The notes below the pieces were generated by a model that saw nothing but the letters and a program-made list of their open reading frames with translations, was not told where the DNA came from and did no database searches. From Clostridia bacterium (GTDB taxonomy: Bacteria; Bacillota; Clostridia; Oscillospirales; CAG-272): a stretch of 34,344 nt of DNA. Of this stretch, positions 3,133 through 11,268 are shown piece after piece. The position numbers and the translations under genes were made by a program. Where the stretch lies: positions 1 to 34,344 of the forward strand of contig JAFTOT010000059.1 in the NCBI GenBank assembly GCA_017463665.1. Reading direction: 5' to 3'. Each line of letters begins with the position of its first letter. Position 1 is the stretch's first letter.

Positions 3133-3912
3133 ATGGAAAAAATCGATTTGCCATCTATCAAGATCAAAAAGATTCGCGCTGTCAACCGTCTCAATATCAG
3201 TACACAACATTCGTACTACAGAAAACACAGATGCTGTTGGGCGATCTCGGTCAAGCTCGTCGGAAAGACCACCTACACTTCCGACGGAAAGGTACATATT
3301 TCCGATCCGGATCACATCGTACTTTTGCCGAAGGGCGCTGCCTATAAACTCAGCTATGAGGAGCTCGGCGAGTGCTTCATGGTGGAGTTTGAAGCCGATT
3401 ACGAAGGAGAAAACCCCGGCATCACGAGCTATGCCGTGAGCAGGAAGCACGATTTCGTCAACAAAGCGATCAACCTCGAGCGCCTGTGGACGTTTAAGAA
3501 GCCTGCCTACGAGCTGTTCTGCATCTCCGGTCTGTACGACCTGATCGCAAAGCTGCACGAGACCGAGCTGTCCGGCTACTACTCCTCCGGCAAGTATAAG
3601 GTCATCGAACCCGCGATCAAATATTTGGAGGAAAACTATGCCGATCCCGACCTGTCCAGTGAGGACATGGCGCGCGTCGCCGGCATCAGCTGTGTGTATT
3701 TCCGTAAGATCTTCTCGATCGTATTCGGTCAATCCCCGATGCGATACCTCCAATCGGTGCGCATGGAAAAGGCAAAAGACATGCTCTCGGGCGATTATAC
3801 GCCCATCACCGACATCGCGGAAAGCGTCGGCTTCAAAAGCATTTACTATTTCAGCAAGACCTTCAAAAAGATCACAGGCTACACCCCGACCGAATACGCA
3901 AGACGCAAATAG
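3133..3912 (+). CDS. AraC/XylS family transcriptional regulator
   Basis: The 259-residue protein has an N-terminal cupin-like sensing half (about residues 1-140, containing the phrase HIVLLPKGAAYKLSYEE) and a C-terminal AraC-type DNA-binding domain with two helix-turn-helix motifs. The first is around DPDLSSEDMARVAGISCVYF. The second contains ITDIAESVGFKSIYYFSKTF, followed by the family ending KKITGYTPTEYARR. The start at 3133 is preceded by GGAGG (3123-3127) and lies downstream of the promoter, so longer reading frames are excluded. The gene is transcribed away from the Gfo/Idh-MDR-AEC unit and is the obvious candidate regulator of it, probably answering to the pathway substrate. The ligand cannot be read from the sequence. 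Confidence 0.88.
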   Translation: MEKIDLPSIKIKKIRAVNRLNISTQHSYYRKHRCCWAISVKLVGKTTYTSDGKVHISDPDHIVLLPKGAAYKLSYEELGECFMVEFEADYEGENPGITSYAVSRKHDFVNKAINLERLWTFKKPAYELFCISGLYDLIAKLHETELSGYYSSGKYKVIEPAIKYLEENYADPDLSSEDMARVAGISCVYFRKIFSIVFGQSPMRYLQSVRMEKAKDMLSGDYTPITDIAESVGFKSIYYFSKTFKKITGYTPTEYARRK

Positions 3913-4936: not shown

Positions 4937-5027
4937 ATATTTCCGATCGGAAATATATCACGCGTTCCTCGGAACGCATATCACACGCCGCAAGGCGTAT
5001 ATCACGCACTCGCAAAGTGCATATCAC
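4937..5027 (+). repeat. Hairpin array A: four different hairpins joined by ATATCAC linkers
   Basis: Between the terminator and scfB lie four unrelated perfect or near-perfect hairpins: 4937-4956 (perfect palindrome), 4962-4977 (GCGTTCC/GGAACGC), 4985-4998 (ACGCC/GGCGT) and 5006-5020 (GCACT/AGTGC). The stems share no sequence, yet each hairpin is followed by the same linker: ATATCAC at 4978-4984, 4999-5005 and 5021-5027, and the overlapping form ATATCAC at 4955-4961. The array ends about 40 nt before the scfB start. The same linker recurs in the array between ilvC and ilvD. Confidence 0.85.
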
Positions 5028-5067
5028 TTTTTATGCACTTCCCCATTTTCACAAGGAGAACCTACAT

Positions 5068-6456
5068 ATGATACATCAGTATAAACTCGGCGGTTACAAT
5101 ATCGTGCTCGATGTCTGCTCCGGCTCGGTGCACGCGGTAGACGAGGTCGCCTACGATATGATCGCCATGTTTGAGCAAAGCGACCGCAGCGCAGTGATCG
5201 CCGCAATCCGGGAAAAATACGCCGACCGCGCCGACATCACGGATGCGGATATCGAGGAATGCTACGAGCAGGTCGTATCCCTCAAAGAGAGCGGCAAGCT
5301 GTTTGCCCCCGACACCTTTGAACCGATGGCGGGCGCTCTCAAAGCCAAGACCGCAGGCGTTGTCAAGGCGCTCTGCCTGCACGTGGCGCACACCTGCAAC
5401 CTGAACTGCGCCTACTGCTTTGCCAGCCAGGGAAAATACCACGGCGACCGCGCGATCATGTCCTTTGAAGTGGGCAAGGCGGCGCTGGACTTCCTCGTGG
5501 AGCATTCGGGCACGCGCCGCAATCTCGAAGTGGACTTTTTCGGCGGCGAACCGCTGATGAACTTTGACGTGGTCAAAGAGCTCGTTGCCTACGCGCGCAG
5601 CATCGAAAAGGAACGCGGCAAGAACTTCCGCTTTACCCTCACGACCAACGGTCTGCTCATCGACGATGACGTGATCGACTTTGCCAACCGAGAAATGAGC
5701 AACGTTGTCCTCAGCCTCGACGGTCGAAAGGAGATCCACGACCGCTACCGCGTGGACTACGCAGGTAACGGCAGCTATGACCGCATCGTGCCGAAGTTTC
5801 AAAAGCTAGTCGAAGCGCGCGGCGGCAAGAACTACTACATGCGCGGCACCTTCACGCACCGGAACCCCGACTTTCTCAAGGACATTCAGCAGATGCTCGA
5901 CCTCGGCTTTAACGAGCTGAGCATGGAGCCCGTCGTCTGCGCGCCCGGAGACGCATCCGAGCTGACCGAGGCGGACAAGCCCATCGTCATGGAACAGTAC
6001 GAAAAGCTCGCCGAGCTGATGCTCGAGCGCAACCGCGCGGGCAAGCCGTTCACCTTCTACCACTACATGATCGATCTGACGGGCGGTCCCTGCATCTACA
6101 AGCGCATCTCGGGCTGCGGCTCGGGAACCGAGTACATGGCGGTTACCCCGTGGGGCGACCTGTACCCCTGCCACCAGTTTGTCGGCGATGAAAAATTCAA
6201 GCTCGGCAGCGTATTCGACGGCGTGACCAACACCGCCATGCAGGACGAATTTGCCTCCTGCAATGTTTACGCGCGTCCCGAGTGCCGCGACTGCTGGGCA
6301 AGGCTCTATTGCTCGGGCGGCTGTGCGGCAAACGCCTACCACGCGACAGGCTCGGTCAAGGGCATCTACAAATACGGCTGCGACCTCTTCCGCAAGCGCA
6401 TGGAATGCGCGATCATGGTGCAGATCGCCGAGATCTTTGAAGGTCAGGGGCAATGA
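5068..6456 (+). CDS. scfB: SCIFF peptide maturase, radical SAM/SPASM thioether-forming enzyme
   Basis: The 462-residue radical SAM enzyme is predicted to install thioether cross-links in the ScfA peptide. In order, it has an N-terminal RiPP recognition-like region (residues 1 to about 95), the CxxxCxxC cluster motif HTCNLNCAYC with Cys 110, 114 and 117, a partial TIM barrel including DFFGGEPLMN, and a C-terminal SPASM/twitch region. That region contains CGSGTEYMAVTPWGDLYPC and then CRDCWARLYCSGGCAAN, which supply the ligands for two auxiliary iron-sulfur clusters. Its length is typical of the family. The start at 5068 follows AAGGAG by 9-10 nt, and the reading frame further upstream lies in the hairpin array. 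The last codons overlap the next gene by 4 nt (ATGA). Oxygen-sensitive clusters fit an anaerobe. Confidence 0.95.
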   Translation: MIHQYKLGGYNIVLDVCSGSVHAVDEVAYDMIAMFEQSDRSAVIAAIREKYADRADITDADIEECYEQVVSLKESGKLFAPDTFEPMAGALKAKTAGVVKALCLHVAHTCNLNCAYCFASQGKYHGDRAIMSFEVGKAALDFLVEHSGTRRNLEVDFFGGEPLMNFDVVKELVAYARSIEKERGKNFRFTLTTNGLLIDDDVIDFANREMSNVVLSLDGRKEIHDRYRVDYAGNGSYDRIVPKFQKLVEARGGKNYYMRGTFTHRNPDFLKDIQQMLDLGFNELSMEPVVCAPGDASELTEADKPIVMEQYEKLAELMLERNRAGKPFTFYHYMIDLTGGPCIYKRISGCGSGTEYMAVTPWGDLYPCHQFVGDEKFKLGSVFDGVTNTAMQDEFASCNVYARPECRDCWARLYCSGGCAANAYHATGSVKGIYKYGCDLFRKRMECAIMVQIAEIFEGQGQ

Positions 6457-7781
6457 CAACGCCGATCGTCGATTTTGTGCGCCGCTATGCAGAGAGCAAC
6501 GCCATGCGCCTGCATATGCCGGGGCATAAGGGCATGCCGCTCTGCGGCATGGAAGCGCTCGACATCACCGAGATCGAGGGTGCAGACAGCCTGTACGAGG
6601 CAAGCGGTATCATCAAAGAAAGCGAAAACAACGCAAGTGCGCTGTTCGGCTGTGATACGTTCTATTCCACCGAGGGGTCTTCCCTCTGCATCCGCGCTAT
6701 GCTCCATCTTGTGCTGCTGCATGCAAAGCAGTGCGGCAAAAAGCCGCTGATCGCCGCGGGGCGCAATGCGCATAAAACTTTTCTCAGCGCGGCTGCCCTG
6801 CTCGACTTTGACATCGCATGGCTGTACCCGCGCGATGACGCGTCCTACCTCTCCTGCGACATCGATCTGTCCGCACTCGAAAACGTTCTGCAAAAGGAGA
6901 GTCCCGCAGCGGTGTATATCACTTCCCCCGACTATCTCGGCAATGTCGCGGATATCGGGAAGATCGCCGCGCTCTGCCACCGCTATGATACGCTGCTGGC
7001 GGTAGACAACGCGCACGGCGCGTATTTAAAGTTTCTGCCAACCTCGCGGCATCCGATCGACCTCGGCGCGGATATCTGCTGTGACTCCGCACACAAAACG
7101 CTCCCCGTGCTCACGGGCGGCGCCTATCTGCACATCGCAGAAAACGCGCCCGAACTCTTTTCGGCGCAGGCAAAAAATGCGCTCGCCCTGTTTGGCTCGA
7201 CCAGTCCGTCCTATTTAATCCTGCAGTCGCTCGACTGCGCGAACAAGTACATCGCGGACGGCTATCGCGATGCGCTCGCCGCATTTGCAGATCGCGTGCA
7301 GGCACTCAAAGACAAGCTCGCCGCGCATGGATATATCCTGATCGGCAATGAGCCGATGAAGATCACGATCAGCACAAAACCATACGGCTACAGCGGGAAA
7401 AATTTTGCCGATAGACTCGCAAAACAGAATATCATCTGCGAGTTTGCCGACAACGACTTTACCGTGATGATGCTCACGCCCGAGATCGGTGACAGCCTCG
7501 ACCGTCTCGAAAGTGCCCTCTGCTCCATCGAGAGAAAAGCCGCCATCGACAAGCAGCCGCCCGCCTGTCAAAAGCAGGAGCGCGTACTCTCCGTGCGGCA
7601 GGCAACCTTCTCCGCATGTGAGACCGTCCCCGCAAGCGAAAGCGTCGGCAGGATCCTCGCCGCCGCCACCGTCGGCTGTCCCCCCGCCGTCCCCATTGTC
7701 ATCAGCGGCGAACGCATCGACGCGCACGCGGTCAAGTGTTTCGACTATTACGGCATCGAGACATGCACCGTGGTAAAATAA
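6453..7781 (+). CDS. PLP-dependent Orn/Lys/Arg decarboxylase-like protein (YaaO-type)
   Basis: The 442-residue fold-type I PLP enzyme belongs to the Orn/Lys/Arg decarboxylase group. Motifs are MRLHMPGHKG (residues 18-27), DITEIEGADSLYEASG, VDNAHGA with Asp 185 and His 188, and the Schiff-base lysine Lys 215 in CDSAHKTLPVLTGGAYLH. The protein is shorter than the roughly 700-residue inducible enterobacterial decarboxylases and resembles Bacillus YaaO-type proteins that lack the N-terminal response-regulator-like wing. The C-terminal domain (about residues 340-440) contains FADNDFTVMMLTPE. The start codon overlaps the scfB stop (ATGA), so translation is coupled to the maturase. The substrate, and whether the gene serves the SCIFF system, are unknown. 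It was terminated by the hairpin now split by the inserted element. Confidence 0.85.
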   Translation: MTTPIVDFVRRYAESNAMRLHMPGHKGMPLCGMEALDITEIEGADSLYEASGIIKESENNASALFGCDTFYSTEGSSLCIRAMLHLVLLHAKQCGKKPLIAAGRNAHKTFLSAAALLDFDIAWLYPRDDASYLSCDIDLSALENVLQKESPAAVYITSPDYLGNVADIGKIAALCHRYDTLLAVDNAHGAYLKFLPTSRHPIDLGADICCDSAHKTLPVLTGGAYLHIAENAPELFSAQAKNALALFGSTSPSYLILQSLDCANKYIADGYRDALAAFADRVQALKDKLAAHGYILIGNEPMKITISTKPYGYSGKNFADRLAKQNIICEFADNDFTVMMLTPEIGDSLDRLESALCSIERKAAIDKQPPACQKQERVLSVRQATFSACETVPASESVGRILAAATVGCPPAVPIVISGERIDAHAVKCFDYYGIETCTVVK

Positions 7782-7790
7782 AATCAAGTC

Positions 7791-7812
7791 AAAAAAGGTT
7801 CCTTTACGCAAG
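7791..7812 (+). other. Left half of an interrupted bidirectional terminator, with left target duplication
   Basis: AAAAAAGGTTCC (7791-7802) is followed by TTTACGCAAG (7803-7812). The latter is repeated directly at 9598-9607, and it is followed there by GAACC and a T run. Deleting 7813-9607 restores a stem AAAAAAGGTTCC/GGAACCTTTTTT around loop TTTACGCAA, a clean intrinsic terminator between the converging genes at 7781 and 9626. Confidence 0.85.
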
Positions 7813-7845
7813 CAATGTCATTTAGATATGATAGTGCAAGTTTAG
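7813..7845 (+). repeat. Left terminal inverted repeat of the cassette
   Basis: The 33-bp repeat is nearly identical (about 30/33) to the reverse complement of 9565-9597. It contains TTTAGATA and then TTTAGCTA about 20 nt apart; the right end has TTATCTAAA twice at the same spacing. This suggests two transposase contact sites per end. Confidence 0.88.
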
Positions 7846-7867
7846 CTAAGCCCAACGCGAAAGATTC

Positions 7868-7902
7868 CTCGGTTGTCAAAAGCAATCGAGGGGTCTTTTT
7901 TC
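7868..7902 (+). terminator. Inward-facing terminator inside the left end of the cassette
   Basis: CCTCGGTTG (7868-7876) pairs with CAATCGAGG (7884-7892) using one G-U wobble on the plus-strand RNA, then comes GGTCTTTTTT. It would stop plus-strand transcripts arriving from the decarboxylase gene, replacing the terminator that the insertion broke. Confidence 0.8.
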
Positions 7903-7939
7903 TGTCAAGGAGTAAGGTTGTGCAATTCTCAATCTAAAT

Positions 7940-7969
7940 AAAAAATGCCCCGCACGAAGCGGTGCGAGA
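7940..7969 (-). terminator. Terminator of the XRE/TPR gene
   Basis: On the minus strand CTCGCAC and GTGCGGG pair around a short loop, followed by CATTTTTTATTT, immediately after the stop codon of the regulator gene. Confidence 0.7.
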
Positions 7970-7970
7970 A

Positions 7971-9014
7971 TTACTTGATATATTCTGCAAGGTCGTAGTT
8001 TTCGAGATACTTATAGAAAGGCTCCATATAATACTCTTTATTCTCCTCAAAATCCTTCCATACAACGGATATGAGTTTGTATGCTTCGGAAATAGACTTT
8101 TCGCACTCTTCAATATTACCAAGTTTTTTATAGCAAGCGGCAATACACTGAAGGAAACTCCAATGGAACGTTTGCATACCCTCCCAAAGATATTGATCTG
8201 CAGGGGCATCATAGTAATCTGTCAAAAGGAACGTTGTCAGAACCAGAAGTCCCTTTTCATAGCATTTCAAAGCCTCGGGAATATAATCCTCGGGCGCATA
8301 ATCGCGGAACTTAACCTCGGGATGCTGATCCATAAAGAACCAAGCATTGCCCTCCTCCATACAAGCTTGGTATAGGCTCTGCAAATGATGACATCTTGAC
8401 ATAATTGCGCCATTGAGTTTATCTCTTCCGGACAGACGAAATGCAAATGCAGAGTCGCGAAGGTCGTATTCGCGAGGAAGCGTTTCCAAAACGCCTTTTG
8501 CTTTTTGATAATCGCCTTTCTTGAGATATGCTGCGGCTTGTATATCTTTTACGTTACACACCCGGATGAAATCGTTGCTTTCTGTAATGATTTTTTGGGA
8601 GAGTTCAATCATTTCGTCCAAATGCGTAACATCGCCCTCATCGCGCAAAGCATATTCGTATGCATCTAAAAGTGCAGTCAGTAGTTCTTCGTTTCCCGGA
8701 TATTCTTGCAATGCTGTTTTAATAATCTCGATATACTTCGGCGTGTCATCAAATAAATAATCCCAAGCGTCGTCAATGATTTTTTGAATTTTTGCTTTCA
8801 TTTCGCGAATATCATAATCAAACAGAATATCCATAGAAACCTCAAAATATCCTGCGATAACCGGTATCATTTCCATATCGGGATATGTCAGACCACTCTC
8901 CCATTTGCTTACCGCTTGCGGAGAAACAAAAAGCACGGAGGCAAGCCCCTCTTGGGTAATACCTTTCTTTTTTCTGAGTTCTCGTATCTTATTGCCTATA
9001 TTGATATTGGTCAT
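7971..9014 (-). CDS. XRE-family transcriptional regulator with C-terminal TPR-like region
   Basis: The 347-residue protein starts with an XRE/Cro-CI helix-turn-helix (about residues 5-62) containing KIRELRKKKGITQEGLA, VSPQAVSKWESGLTYPDMEM and IAGYFEVSMDILF. The remaining 280 residues are helical and look like degenerate tetratricopeptide repeats rich in Tyr, Leu, Glu and Lys, as in RRNPP-like and related cytosolic regulators that respond to peptides or protein partners. No transposase or integrase motif is present. CCTCC complementary to a ribosome site sits just upstream of the ATG on the minus strand. It is the only gene in the inverted-repeat cassette and has its own promoter and terminator. 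Codon use is AT-rich compared with neighbours, consistent with horizontal acquisition. Its targets are unknown. Confidence 0.88.
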   Translation of the reverse strand: MTNINIGNKIRELRKKKGITQEGLASVLFVSPQAVSKWESGLTYPDMEMIPVIAGYFEVSMDILFDYDIREMKAKIQKIIDDAWDYLFDDTPKYIEIIKTALQEYPGNEELLTALLDAYEYALRDEGDVTHLDEMIELSQKIITESNDFIRVCNVKDIQAAAYLKKGDYQKAKGVLETLPREYDLRDSAFAFRLSGRDKLNGAIMSRCHHLQSLYQACMEEGNAWFFMDQHPEVKFRDYAPEDYIPEALKCYEKGLLVLTTFLLTDYYDAPADQYLWEGMQTFHWSFLQCIAACYKKLGNIEECEKSISEAYKLISVVWKDFEENKEYYMEPFYKYLENYDLAEYIK

Positions 9015-9056
9015 AAGAAACCTCCAATTTTTATTGTAAAGCGCTTCACTGATTAA

Positions 9057-9085
9057 AGTATAACATAAAAATGGGGGTATATCAA
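9057..9085 (-). promoter_or_regulatory. Sigma-A promoter of the XRE/TPR gene
   Basis: On the minus strand TTGATA (complement of 9080-9085) and TATACT (complement of 9057-9062) are separated by 17 nt. An AGCGCT palindrome lies between the promoter and the ATG (around 9040) and could be an operator, which is speculative. Confidence 0.7.
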
Positions 9086-9530
9086 CAACGCTATATTAGA
9101 ACAAAATCAACCAATGGTTAAAACGGTTGAAGTGTAAGAATATTATTAACATTTACTGTTTTCCACGACGCTCGCGTCCGGGGTAGGCATAGTATAACAA
9201 ACCCCGCCCATCTATAAGATTAAATTACTATCGAAGCTATTTCAGATGCGCGGACGAATACCCTCCCCCAGTTTTTTATACGAGTTTTTTCCTATTTATA
9301 TAAAAGATTTCCGCACTAAAATTTTTATACTTTTATTCCACATTTTGCGTATAAGTCTGTATTTTCTGCAAAAAACAGCGTAAACGCACCTTTTTCAGCG
9401 ATTTCACGCTCAAACTTGATAAGTAAATCCCCCGAAATCTTTCGTCAAAATCTTTCTTTCGTTGCCCCGTCCCAAGCGGACGAGTAGGTATAAGCAGCAA
9501 TTTTATACATATCTAAGCAGCCGACAGAAG
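9086..9530. other. Non-coding AT-rich interior of the cassette
   Basis: No convincing gene was found in this roughly 445-nt stretch on either strand. It contains a loose dyad CGGGGT...ACCCCG (about 9179-9207) and several T-rich runs. It may be remnant sequence of a former transposase gene or a regulatory region, but nothing recognisable remains. Confidence 0.5.
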
Positions 9531-9563
9531 AAAAATAAGGGCAAACCCGAAGATTTACCCTTA
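9531..9563 (-). terminator. Inward-facing terminator inside the right end of the cassette
   Basis: On the minus-strand RNA TAAGGGTAAA pairs fully (one G-U) with TTTGCCCTTA, followed by TTTTTC; the plus-strand RNA would have a C-A mismatch. It would stop transcripts from the lipoprotein gene entering the cassette, matching the opposite-facing terminator at the other end. Confidence 0.75.
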
Positions 9564-9564
9564 T

Positions 9565-9597
9565 CTAAACTTGCACCGTCTTATCTAAATGACATTG
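9565..9597 (-). repeat. Right terminal inverted repeat of the cassette
   Basis: It is the partner of 7813-7845 with three mismatches in 33. It ends GACATTG next to the direct repeat TTTACGCAAG. TTATCTAAA occurs at 9561-9569 and again at 9581-9589. Confidence 0.88.
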
Positions 9598-9619
9598 TTT
9601 ACGCAAGGAACCTTTTTTT
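9598..9619 (-). other. Right half of the interrupted terminator, with right target duplication
   Basis: TTTACGCAAG (9598-9607) is the second copy of the target duplication and runs into GAACCTTTTTTT. Seven nucleotides further right is the stop codon of the lipoprotein gene, so the original hairpin once ended transcripts from both sides. Confidence 0.82.
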
Positions 9620-9625
9620 GATTTG

Positions 9626-11209
9626 TCACTGCGGCAGGACGACGGTAACTTTGTCGCCGTAGATCAGCAGATTTCTGCCGAGTTCATACGGGCATGTATA
9701 GAGGATCTCCCCGAGTTTTTGGCTGAGATCGGGCGAATAGAACGCAACTTGCAGCATGTCCCATCGGGAGCCGGGCGCCTCTCCGTTTTCGGTGTAGTAT
9801 GCACACCACATCGAGTTGTCAAAAGTATAATAATAGCCGTCCCGCATCCAAAATACGCCGTCTGCGGCATCGCGCGAAGCAAGCAGCGTTTTTTCGCCGC
9901 TCAAATCATTTTTATAATATTTTTGCACCGCATAGTTTTGCAAAAGCGCGCTGTAAAAGCCGCCGTCAAAGACAGTATCGGGGAGCGTGCCGTCTTTCAC
10001 TTCTCTCTTTTCGCCCGTCTCTACATTGTAGATGCCATAGCCCGCAGACCATTCATATCCGCCGATCCAATAGAGCAGATCTGTGTCATCGATAAAGCCG
10101 ATCGGCTCATAGCCGACCACATCGCCGATGCTTTTCGCCTTGCAGGCATCGGCATCGCCGTACATGACATTTTCACAGATGCGTTTCACGGTGCCGTCGG
10201 GATATTTTATATCCAAGCCGCCGTTATTCCATCCATCCTCCCGCACAGCATACGCGATATGCCGACCGTCGGGAGATATACAGCATCGCTCCGCAATAGG
10301 AAAAAGCTCCATTTCGATCTCCCGCAGAGCAAAGGAGCCGTTTTCTTCGGTCAAGGAGATTGCACGATCGACAAACCGCGTATTTCCGTCATCGGAATGT
10401 TTTGTCGTATAGATCACGATGCCATCGGCGGTGTACGCAATATCCGAGTAACCGGACGTAATATCCGATGCGGTCTCATACACCGCTTCACCTGCGGATG
10501 CGTCCACGACGTACAGCGCATCGTAATAGCAGGCAGCATTCTCCATGCGGCGGTAGCGCAGGTATACCGTATAGCGGTCGTTGTACGCGTATGCGCAGTA
10601 GGCAGTATCCTCGGGCAGCGGCAGCTCGACCGTTTGCAGTGTAACGGTGCCGTTATCGGCGAGCACATGCACGGGTTCGCGCTTTACCCATATCTGTTGC
10701 GGCACAGCAACGGCATCACTGTAGAGCAGATAGACCAAGCATACGGTTTTGCCGTTCTGCTTGGCAAGAACGGTCAACAGGATCTCCCCGCTGCCGGCAC
10801 CGCCCGAAGCGGCAACGATCCTGCCATCCGTGTGGCCCTCGGGAAGGGACAATACACACTCGGACACCGACAAGACCTCGCGGGTCTGCGGATCGCCCAA
10901 AACCTGCACATAGTAGGTAAGTCCCTCTTCAAAAATATAAAACGTCGGGTTGCCGCCGACAGGAGAGGCTGTCAGAAGCGCACTTGCGGGATCGGCAGGC
11001 AGTGCCTCGATCTCCTGCAAAGCGGATGGTGCAGCCGTGATCTGCGGCTCGGCAGTTTCTTTCGGCGCCGTTGTTTCGACGGTAGTGATTTCGGCAGTTG
11101 TCGTTTCTACGGTCGCCACCGTCGTCTCCGCAGGCAGCTGCTCCTTGCCGCAGCCAACCGGAGCAAGCACCAAAACCGCGCTCAAAGTTGCAACCCAAAT
11201 CTTTTTCAT
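9626..11209 (-). CDS. Putative lipoprotein with beta-propeller-like (TolB/PD40-type) repeats
   Basis: The 527-residue predicted surface lipoprotein has the N-terminus MKKIWVATLSAVLVLAPVGC. This is a signal peptide with a lipobox-like cysteine at residue 20, though the residues before it (P-V-G) are not canonical. A Thr/Glu/Ala-rich linker follows (about residues 25-60). The large extracytoplasmic domain contains propeller-like phrases such as CISPDGRHIAYAVRED and YSDIAYTADGIVIYT, typical of TolB/PD40-like repeats. No catalytic motif was recognised. The start at 11209 is fixed by AAAGGAGA and lies downstream of a promoter. The stop sits directly beside the cassette, whose inner terminator now ends its transcript. 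The function is unknown; sensing or binding at the cell surface is a guess from the fold. Confidence 0.75.
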   Translation of the reverse strand: MKKIWVATLSAVLVLAPVGCGKEQLPAETTVATVETTTAEITTVETTAPKETAEPQITAAPSALQEIEALPADPASALLTASPVGGNPTFYIFEEGLTYYVQVLGDPQTREVLSVSECVLSLPEGHTDGRIVAASGGAGSGEILLTVLAKQNGKTVCLVYLLYSDAVAVPQQIWVKREPVHVLADNGTVTLQTVELPLPEDTAYCAYAYNDRYTVYLRYRRMENAACYYDALYVVDASAGEAVYETASDITSGYSDIAYTADGIVIYTTKHSDDGNTRFVDRAISLTEENGSFALREIEMELFPIAERCCISPDGRHIAYAVREDGWNNGGLDIKYPDGTVKRICENVMYGDADACKAKSIGDVVGYEPIGFIDDTDLLYWIGGYEWSAGYGIYNVETGEKREVKDGTLPDTVFDGGFYSALLQNYAVQKYYKNDLSGEKTLLASRDAADGVFWMRDGYYYTFDNSMWCAYYTENGEAPGSRWDMLQVAFYSPDLSQKLGEILYTCPYELGRNLLIYGDKVTVVLPQ

Positions 11210-11239
11210 ATGCGCGTCTCCTTTGTTCCTTATATGTAT

Positions 11240-11268
11240 AGAATATCGCAATTCCCCGCAAAAGTCAA
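11240..11268 (-). promoter_or_regulatory. Sigma-A promoter of the lipoprotein gene
   Basis: On the minus strand TTGACT (complement of 11263-11268) and TATTCT (complement of 11240-11245) are separated by 17 nt, about 30 nt before the start codon. Confidence 0.7.

Follow-up and report, generated by a model that had tools for sequence, protein, structure and literature searches.

The closest described counterparts of the element reported here are the mobile insertion cassettes of the Bacillus cereus group. MIC231, whose ends are those of IS231 from the IS4 family, lacks a transposase, is flanked by a duplication of about 10 bp and carries a passenger gene, and two articles describe its trans-activation by the IS transposase (PMC1196294, PMC2266710). 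According to the 2008 article (PMC2266710), modular elements with a passenger were at that time known only from the IS231 subgroup, and its Table 1 gives the IS4-subgroup consensus ends as -AATR--------WTW----, with repeats of 10-13 bp. The article also mentions strong target-arm specificity in some IS4-subgroup members, though without using the word 'terminator', and Figure 3 of that paper may already draw some of this target preference. Other IS derivatives are known with passenger genes (transporter IS, tIS) or without a transposase (MITEs) (PMC3129680). Unlike the cassettes described below, tIS keep the transposase and MITEs carry no gene. Intrinsic terminators are targeted by group IIC introns (PMC3522654, citing Robart 2007), which in contrast to the cassettes are retroelements: they integrate by way of RNA, downstream of the stem-loop, and have neither inverted repeats nor target-site duplications. 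No report of an IS targeting terminator loops was found in the open-access literature.

In the window, that is the whole stretch of 34,344 nucleotides that was analysed, there is an insert that splits a terminator between two convergent genes. The features of the locus are given below by window position; bit scores refer to model R1, a sequence model built from 27 ends.

6453..7781, + strand: left neighbour, Orn/Lys/Arg-decarboxylase-like PLP protein (OKR_DC_1, E 7e-32), convergent with the right neighbour
7791..7802: left half of the split terminator stem (AAAAAAGGTTCC), from the fold of the rejoined site
7803..7812: target-site duplication, left copy TTTACGCAAG, 10 bp
7813..9597: insert proper, 1785 bp, bounded by the copies of the duplication
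7813..7850, + strand: left terminal inverted repeat, 38 bp (41.4 bits)
7859..7899, + strand: inward-reading terminator of the left end (CCTCGGTTGT...GCAATCGAGGGGTCTTTTTT), common to other elements, with 0 shuffles as good
7930..9130, - strand: segment homologous to a regulator gene and its promoter in genome G091, 79-80% nucleotide identity to L037:6138-7235
7948..7969, - strand: terminator of the cargo gene
7971..9014, - strand: cargo gene, 347-aa XRE (HTH_3) and TPR regulator (HTH_3, E 1.7e-12)
9036..9049: palindrome GTAAAGCGCTTCAC beside the -10 box, candidate autoregulatory operator, with a close counterpart in G091
9057..9085, - strand: promoter-like site of the cargo gene (TTGATA-17-TATACT, extended -10)
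9388..9597, - strand: conserved right-end module, 78% identical to L065 over 210 nt and also present beside an ECF sigma gene in L035
9413..9481, - strand: fossil of the 3' end of an IS4-subgroup transposase gene (VRLGRGNERKILTKDFGGFTYQV; tblastn E 9e-7, profile E 5e-4 at 9407-9490)
9533..9566, - strand: inward-reading terminator of the right end (GGGTAAATCTTCGGGTTTGCCCTTATTTTT), from terminator scoring against shuffles
9560..9597, - strand: right terminal inverted repeat, 38 bp (49.6 bits)
9598..9607: target-site duplication, right copy TTTACGCAAG, 10 bp
9608..9619: right half of the split terminator stem (GAACCTTTTTTT), from the fold of the rejoined site
9626..11251, - strand: right neighbour, uncharacterised secreted or lipoprotein-like protein without Pfam match, convergent with the left neighbour

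Because the target-site duplication is exactly the 10-bp sequence listed, the element proper was set at 7813-9597. An earlier note on this DNA had described 33-bp inverted repeats with about 30 of 33 positions matching, and a 10-nt loop duplicated at both edges. Both were found, with 30/33 matches over the first 33 bp and an exact duplication, and the repeats could be extended to 38 bp at 34/38 matches. In the left end a motif TTTAGATAWG lies near bases 9-18 and is repeated at 29-38. The note had also described an insert with an XRE/TPR gene only and no transposase; there is indeed a single gene and no transposase ORF, but the transposase fossil had been overlooked. No credible Rfam match was obtained for structured RNA within the insert, where two sub-threshold matches were due to chance. 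The plasmid collection gave no match to the element, and the phage collection showed similarity at the HTH level only.

When the insert is removed, the flanks pair as AAAAAAGGTTCCTT-TACGC-AAGGAACCTTTTTT and form a strong bidirectional terminator between the convergent genes. The minimum free energy of this rejoined terminator was -22.5 kcal/mol as compared to -6.6 +/- 2.4 in 200 shuffles (z -6.7), none of which was as stable. The clean bidirectional terminator expected on excision is thereby restored; the hairpin drawn in the earlier note is real, but its stem is 2 pairs longer and its loop is TACGC instead of TTTACGCAA. The expected empty site was also present: in G005, a genome of the same genus, the orthologue of the left gene (83% identity) is directly followed by a terminator that is not interrupted, AAAAAGGATTCCG...CGGAATCCTTTTTT. 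In that genome (G005:C44, L275) the convergent neighbour of the decarboxylase-like gene is itself a short regulator of the XRE type and lacks cassette ends. The window further encodes a SCIFF-peptide radical SAM maturase (5017-6456; TIGR03974, E 8e-230) immediately upstream of its decarboxylase-like gene.

A search for copies in other terminator loops had been suggested, and sister elements were found that sit mostly in terminators. When 395 genomes of the family were searched with a pattern, the ends were detected in 12, with zero matches for the reversed-pattern control. Model R1 gave strong matches to the 38-bp ends in 13 of the 395, including a second copy in the source genome; outside the family, among 394 genomes of the order, it gave weak matches only, covering the first ~20-30 bases. 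The second copy (G000, C6:328-2380) is flanked by the 10-bp duplication CGTGTGTGCC and carries an ECF sigma factor. Some relatives have 9-bp duplications instead of 10 bp. Cargo could be recognised in 16 elements; not one of these encodes a transposase, and 15 carry a transcription regulator. The 16 cargos are distributed as follows.

XRE/TPR, 11 elements: window, G230, G261, G165, G287, G259, G303 (two), G225 (two), G305
ECF sigma, 3 elements: source genome C6, G182, G122
AraC, 1 element: G305
GNAT, 1 element: G043

Over their length, the other aligned XRE cargos are 20-25% identical to that of the window, as compared to a mean column identity of ~88% for the 38-bp ends. Judging from these sequences, the cassettes have therefore probably acquired cargo repeatedly. 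Incomplete copies were seen as well. The source genome also has, immediately next to an intact terminator, the decayed right end of another cassette (G000:C49:154-217, L036). Two contig ends, L068 (G305:C100) and L261 (G305:C44), resemble the halves of one XRE cassette split by assembly, and the flanks of both carry GCACCGCAT, likely a 9-bp duplication. In L259:3146-3595 (G225:C74) a 192-bp MITE at 3284-3475, with CAATGTCATTAACTTAAG at both ends, occupies an AT-rich site and adjoins or sits inside the decayed right end of a cassette.

The cargo of the window element has a counterpart with 82% amino acid identity in G091, a genome of another family, where it is an ordinary chromosomal gene without the ends. 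The dN/dS of this pair was 0.06 and that of the cargo pairs 0.06-0.22, with dS near saturation at the lowest value, ratios that are consistent with purifying selection. As a transcription factor, the regulator probably controls its own expression and is probably maintained by selection. Its structure, predicted without an alignment, was of low confidence (mean pLDDT 56.5).

The fossil corresponds to the last ~25 codons of the transposase gene and is common to elements with unrelated cargo. It was found at the same place and in inward orientation in the window, L035, L062 and L065, and more weakly in L261, L070 and L260, the last two being 100% identical over the 234 nt available. A profile made from 7 transposase C-termini was searched against six-frame translations of whole loci; the 7 fossils topped its list and all lie inside element ends, 3 of them only at E 0.03-0.05. 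This shared C-terminal sequence indicates that the elements are derivatives of the IS4 subgroup whose transposase gene was deleted. The window fossil matches VRPGRSDERKIVPKSFSGFTYRV in L263, a locus (L263:1-936, G142:C136) with an internally deleted IS4-subgroup transposase and the same UUCG hairpin as the cassettes. In L263 the end, the hairpin and the deleted transposase are followed by a promoter-like stretch facing the contig edge, and the locus is a possible intermediate between IS and cassette. The right-end module is 72% identical over 284 nt between the sigma-carrying L035 and the XRE-carrying L070. A structured RNA was at first considered for this module, part of which is accounted for by the fossil. 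A group IIC intron was rejected, as the element has no credible Rfam match and the insert lies in the loop with a target-site duplication, not 3' of the stem.

The ends of the window element, CAATGTCATTTAGATA..., fit the IS4-subgroup consensus with AAT at 2-4, G at 5 and ATA at 14-16, and the 10-bp duplications of this element and the second copy fall within the 10-13 bp of the subgroup. Of a DDE/YREK transposase only the C-terminal fossil is present, so the element derives from an IS without being one. With IS-type inverted ends and a target-site duplication around a passenger gene, and no transposase, it has the make-up of a mobile insertion cassette. The earlier assignment to a transposase-less cassette of the IS231/IS4 type thus holds for the IS4 subgroup (CAATG..., 10-bp repeats) but not for IS231: the ends begin with CAA, not with CAT-------AA--TAA--- as in IS231 and MIC231. 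The present cassettes also differ from MIC231 in carrying a transposase fossil and their own inward terminators, in almost always carrying a transcription regulator and in sitting in terminators.

Transposases of the IS4-subgroup type were detected in 16 of the 395 family genomes, and the end sequences recur on IS4-subgroup ISs whose transposases measure 443-447 aa. Full-length IS4-subgroup ISs from Paenibacillus, Solobacterium, Roseburia and several genomes of the same family have 9-10-bp duplications and a C-terminal transposase sequence that matches the fossil, and several lie in terminators, among them those of Paenibacillus and Solobacterium (L114, L132). Unlike the cassettes, they encode a transposase of 440-490 aa and lack the repeated TTTAGATAAG at 29-38, although three members have a second TTAAGTTAAG further in. 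A full-length IS with the same ends, which the earlier note had proposed to look for, was found in part: the first 18-20 bp are shared with these transposase-bearing ISs, but none has the complete 38 bp. With model R1 and transposase matches, the 395 family and 394 order genomes contained 0 transposase-bearing elements with full 38-bp ends, and the source genome, an 84% complete MAG, gave no PF01609 or IS4-subgroup profile match. Mobile insertion cassettes usually, but not necessarily, share their genome with a cognate autonomous IS. An Anaerolineae MAG contains many related 142-bp MITEs that share the end CAATGTCATTAAGATAAG (L089, L137, L139, L140, L148, L159, L169 and L174), none of these in terminators.

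For the target site, 11 empty sites were rebuilt, for which both flanks and the duplication were needed. An A-tract to the left and a T-tract to the right of the duplication were present in 9/11, as compared to a background of 0.6% (p 9e-19), and a centred stem of 11 or more pairs in 6/11, as compared to 0.2% at random positions (p 6e-14). Counted from the element, the A-tract occupies positions -21 to -15. Any one of the positions -19 to -16 is an A in 27-30 of 35 flanks, and the base adjoining the element was C or G in 32/35 end flanks; these flanks are not fully independent, as both flanks of a single insertion were counted. The fixed-distance A-tract, more than the hairpin, is the most constant signature of the target. 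The sites are explained most simply if the transposase reads a 10-bp core flanked by phased tracts, a type of sequence that occurs in terminators. It is unlikely, in our view, that instead of A-tracts in double-stranded DNA the hairpin itself, for example as a cruciform at the terminator, is recognised and cut at the loop. Centred hairpins cut at the loop do make up 8 of the 12 examined sites, counting L073, where an element with no recognisable duplication splits a long hairpin. However, the sites of L035 and L040 have both tracts but hardly any stem or none at all, the position of the A-tract is steadier than the stem, and the duplication is always about one helical turn, which fits normal IS4 strand transfer.

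Having moved once under an active parent IS, the cassette could now be a dead relic that is only inherited, which we regard as less likely but worth keeping in mind. The lack of a transposase match in the source genome and the 4/38 divergence between the two ends fit such a history. They stand against the presence of two insertions with perfect duplications in a single genome, and against related insertions, scattered over other genera, whose duplications are intact. Multi-copy IS elements are often dropped from MAGs, and since the genomes are mostly incomplete MAGs, the missing helper transposase is weak evidence. The prevalence of regulators among the cargos, against only 24 HTH_3 matches in the 1.77 Mb genome, could also mean that the regulator belongs to the mobility machinery, for instance by repressing or activating the helper transposase or by binding the ends, and is not plain cargo. 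This is quite improbable: the regulators (XRE, ECF sigma, AraC) are members of families that are not related, the XRE members have low identity, so one common function on the conserved ends is unlikely, and the window's regulator occurs elsewhere as an ordinary chromosomal gene. Chance repeats or a faulty assembly join can practically be dismissed. The source genome is a fragmented MAG, but the ends, the duplication and the target pattern are found again in 13 genomes that were assembled independently, with a control of zero.

We consider it very likely that the window element is an IS4-subgroup mobile insertion cassette with a regulator as cargo; it was probably moved in trans into a tract-flanked terminator site, and its end terminators probably replace the one that was split. 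The parent would have been an IS4-type insertion sequence that lost its transposase gene except for the last codons, and a self-contained regulator unit (promoter, XRE/TPR gene and terminator) now lies between the fossil and the other end. We infer that an IS4-type transposase mobilised the cassette in trans: now or earlier, a related enzyme would have cut it out and pasted it into the new site. The recognised site would consist of the 10-bp core, an A-tract lying to its left at a distance of about one helical turn, and a T-tract on its right side, a pattern that intrinsic terminators would naturally offer. When the first 130 nt of 24 ends were scored, 17 of these ends had an inward terminator that outscored every one of 100 shuffles. 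As both ends of the window element contain one, the element probably re-supplies termination to both neighbours. These terminators would stop transcription from the two convergent genes in place of the broken one, and the insertion would then be harmless and the cargo insulated.

The findings extend mobile insertion cassettes past the IS231 subgroup and tie them to a fossil of the parent transposase gene, and they suggest transcription regulators as preferred passengers. A fixed rule of A-tract and T-tract would give a simple account of why the cassettes land in terminators, and it can be tested directly. Splitting a terminator while bringing along replacements would allow a low-cost entry of mobile DNA into compact genomes. 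More tentatively, it is possible that fixed end modules and exchangeable cargo form a system in which an IS4-type transposase, acting in trans and reading the bipartite 38-bp ends, spreads regulators into terminators throughout the family, with the terminator replaced each time. If true, regulators would have a dedicated and inexpensive means of being exchanged across a bacterial family.
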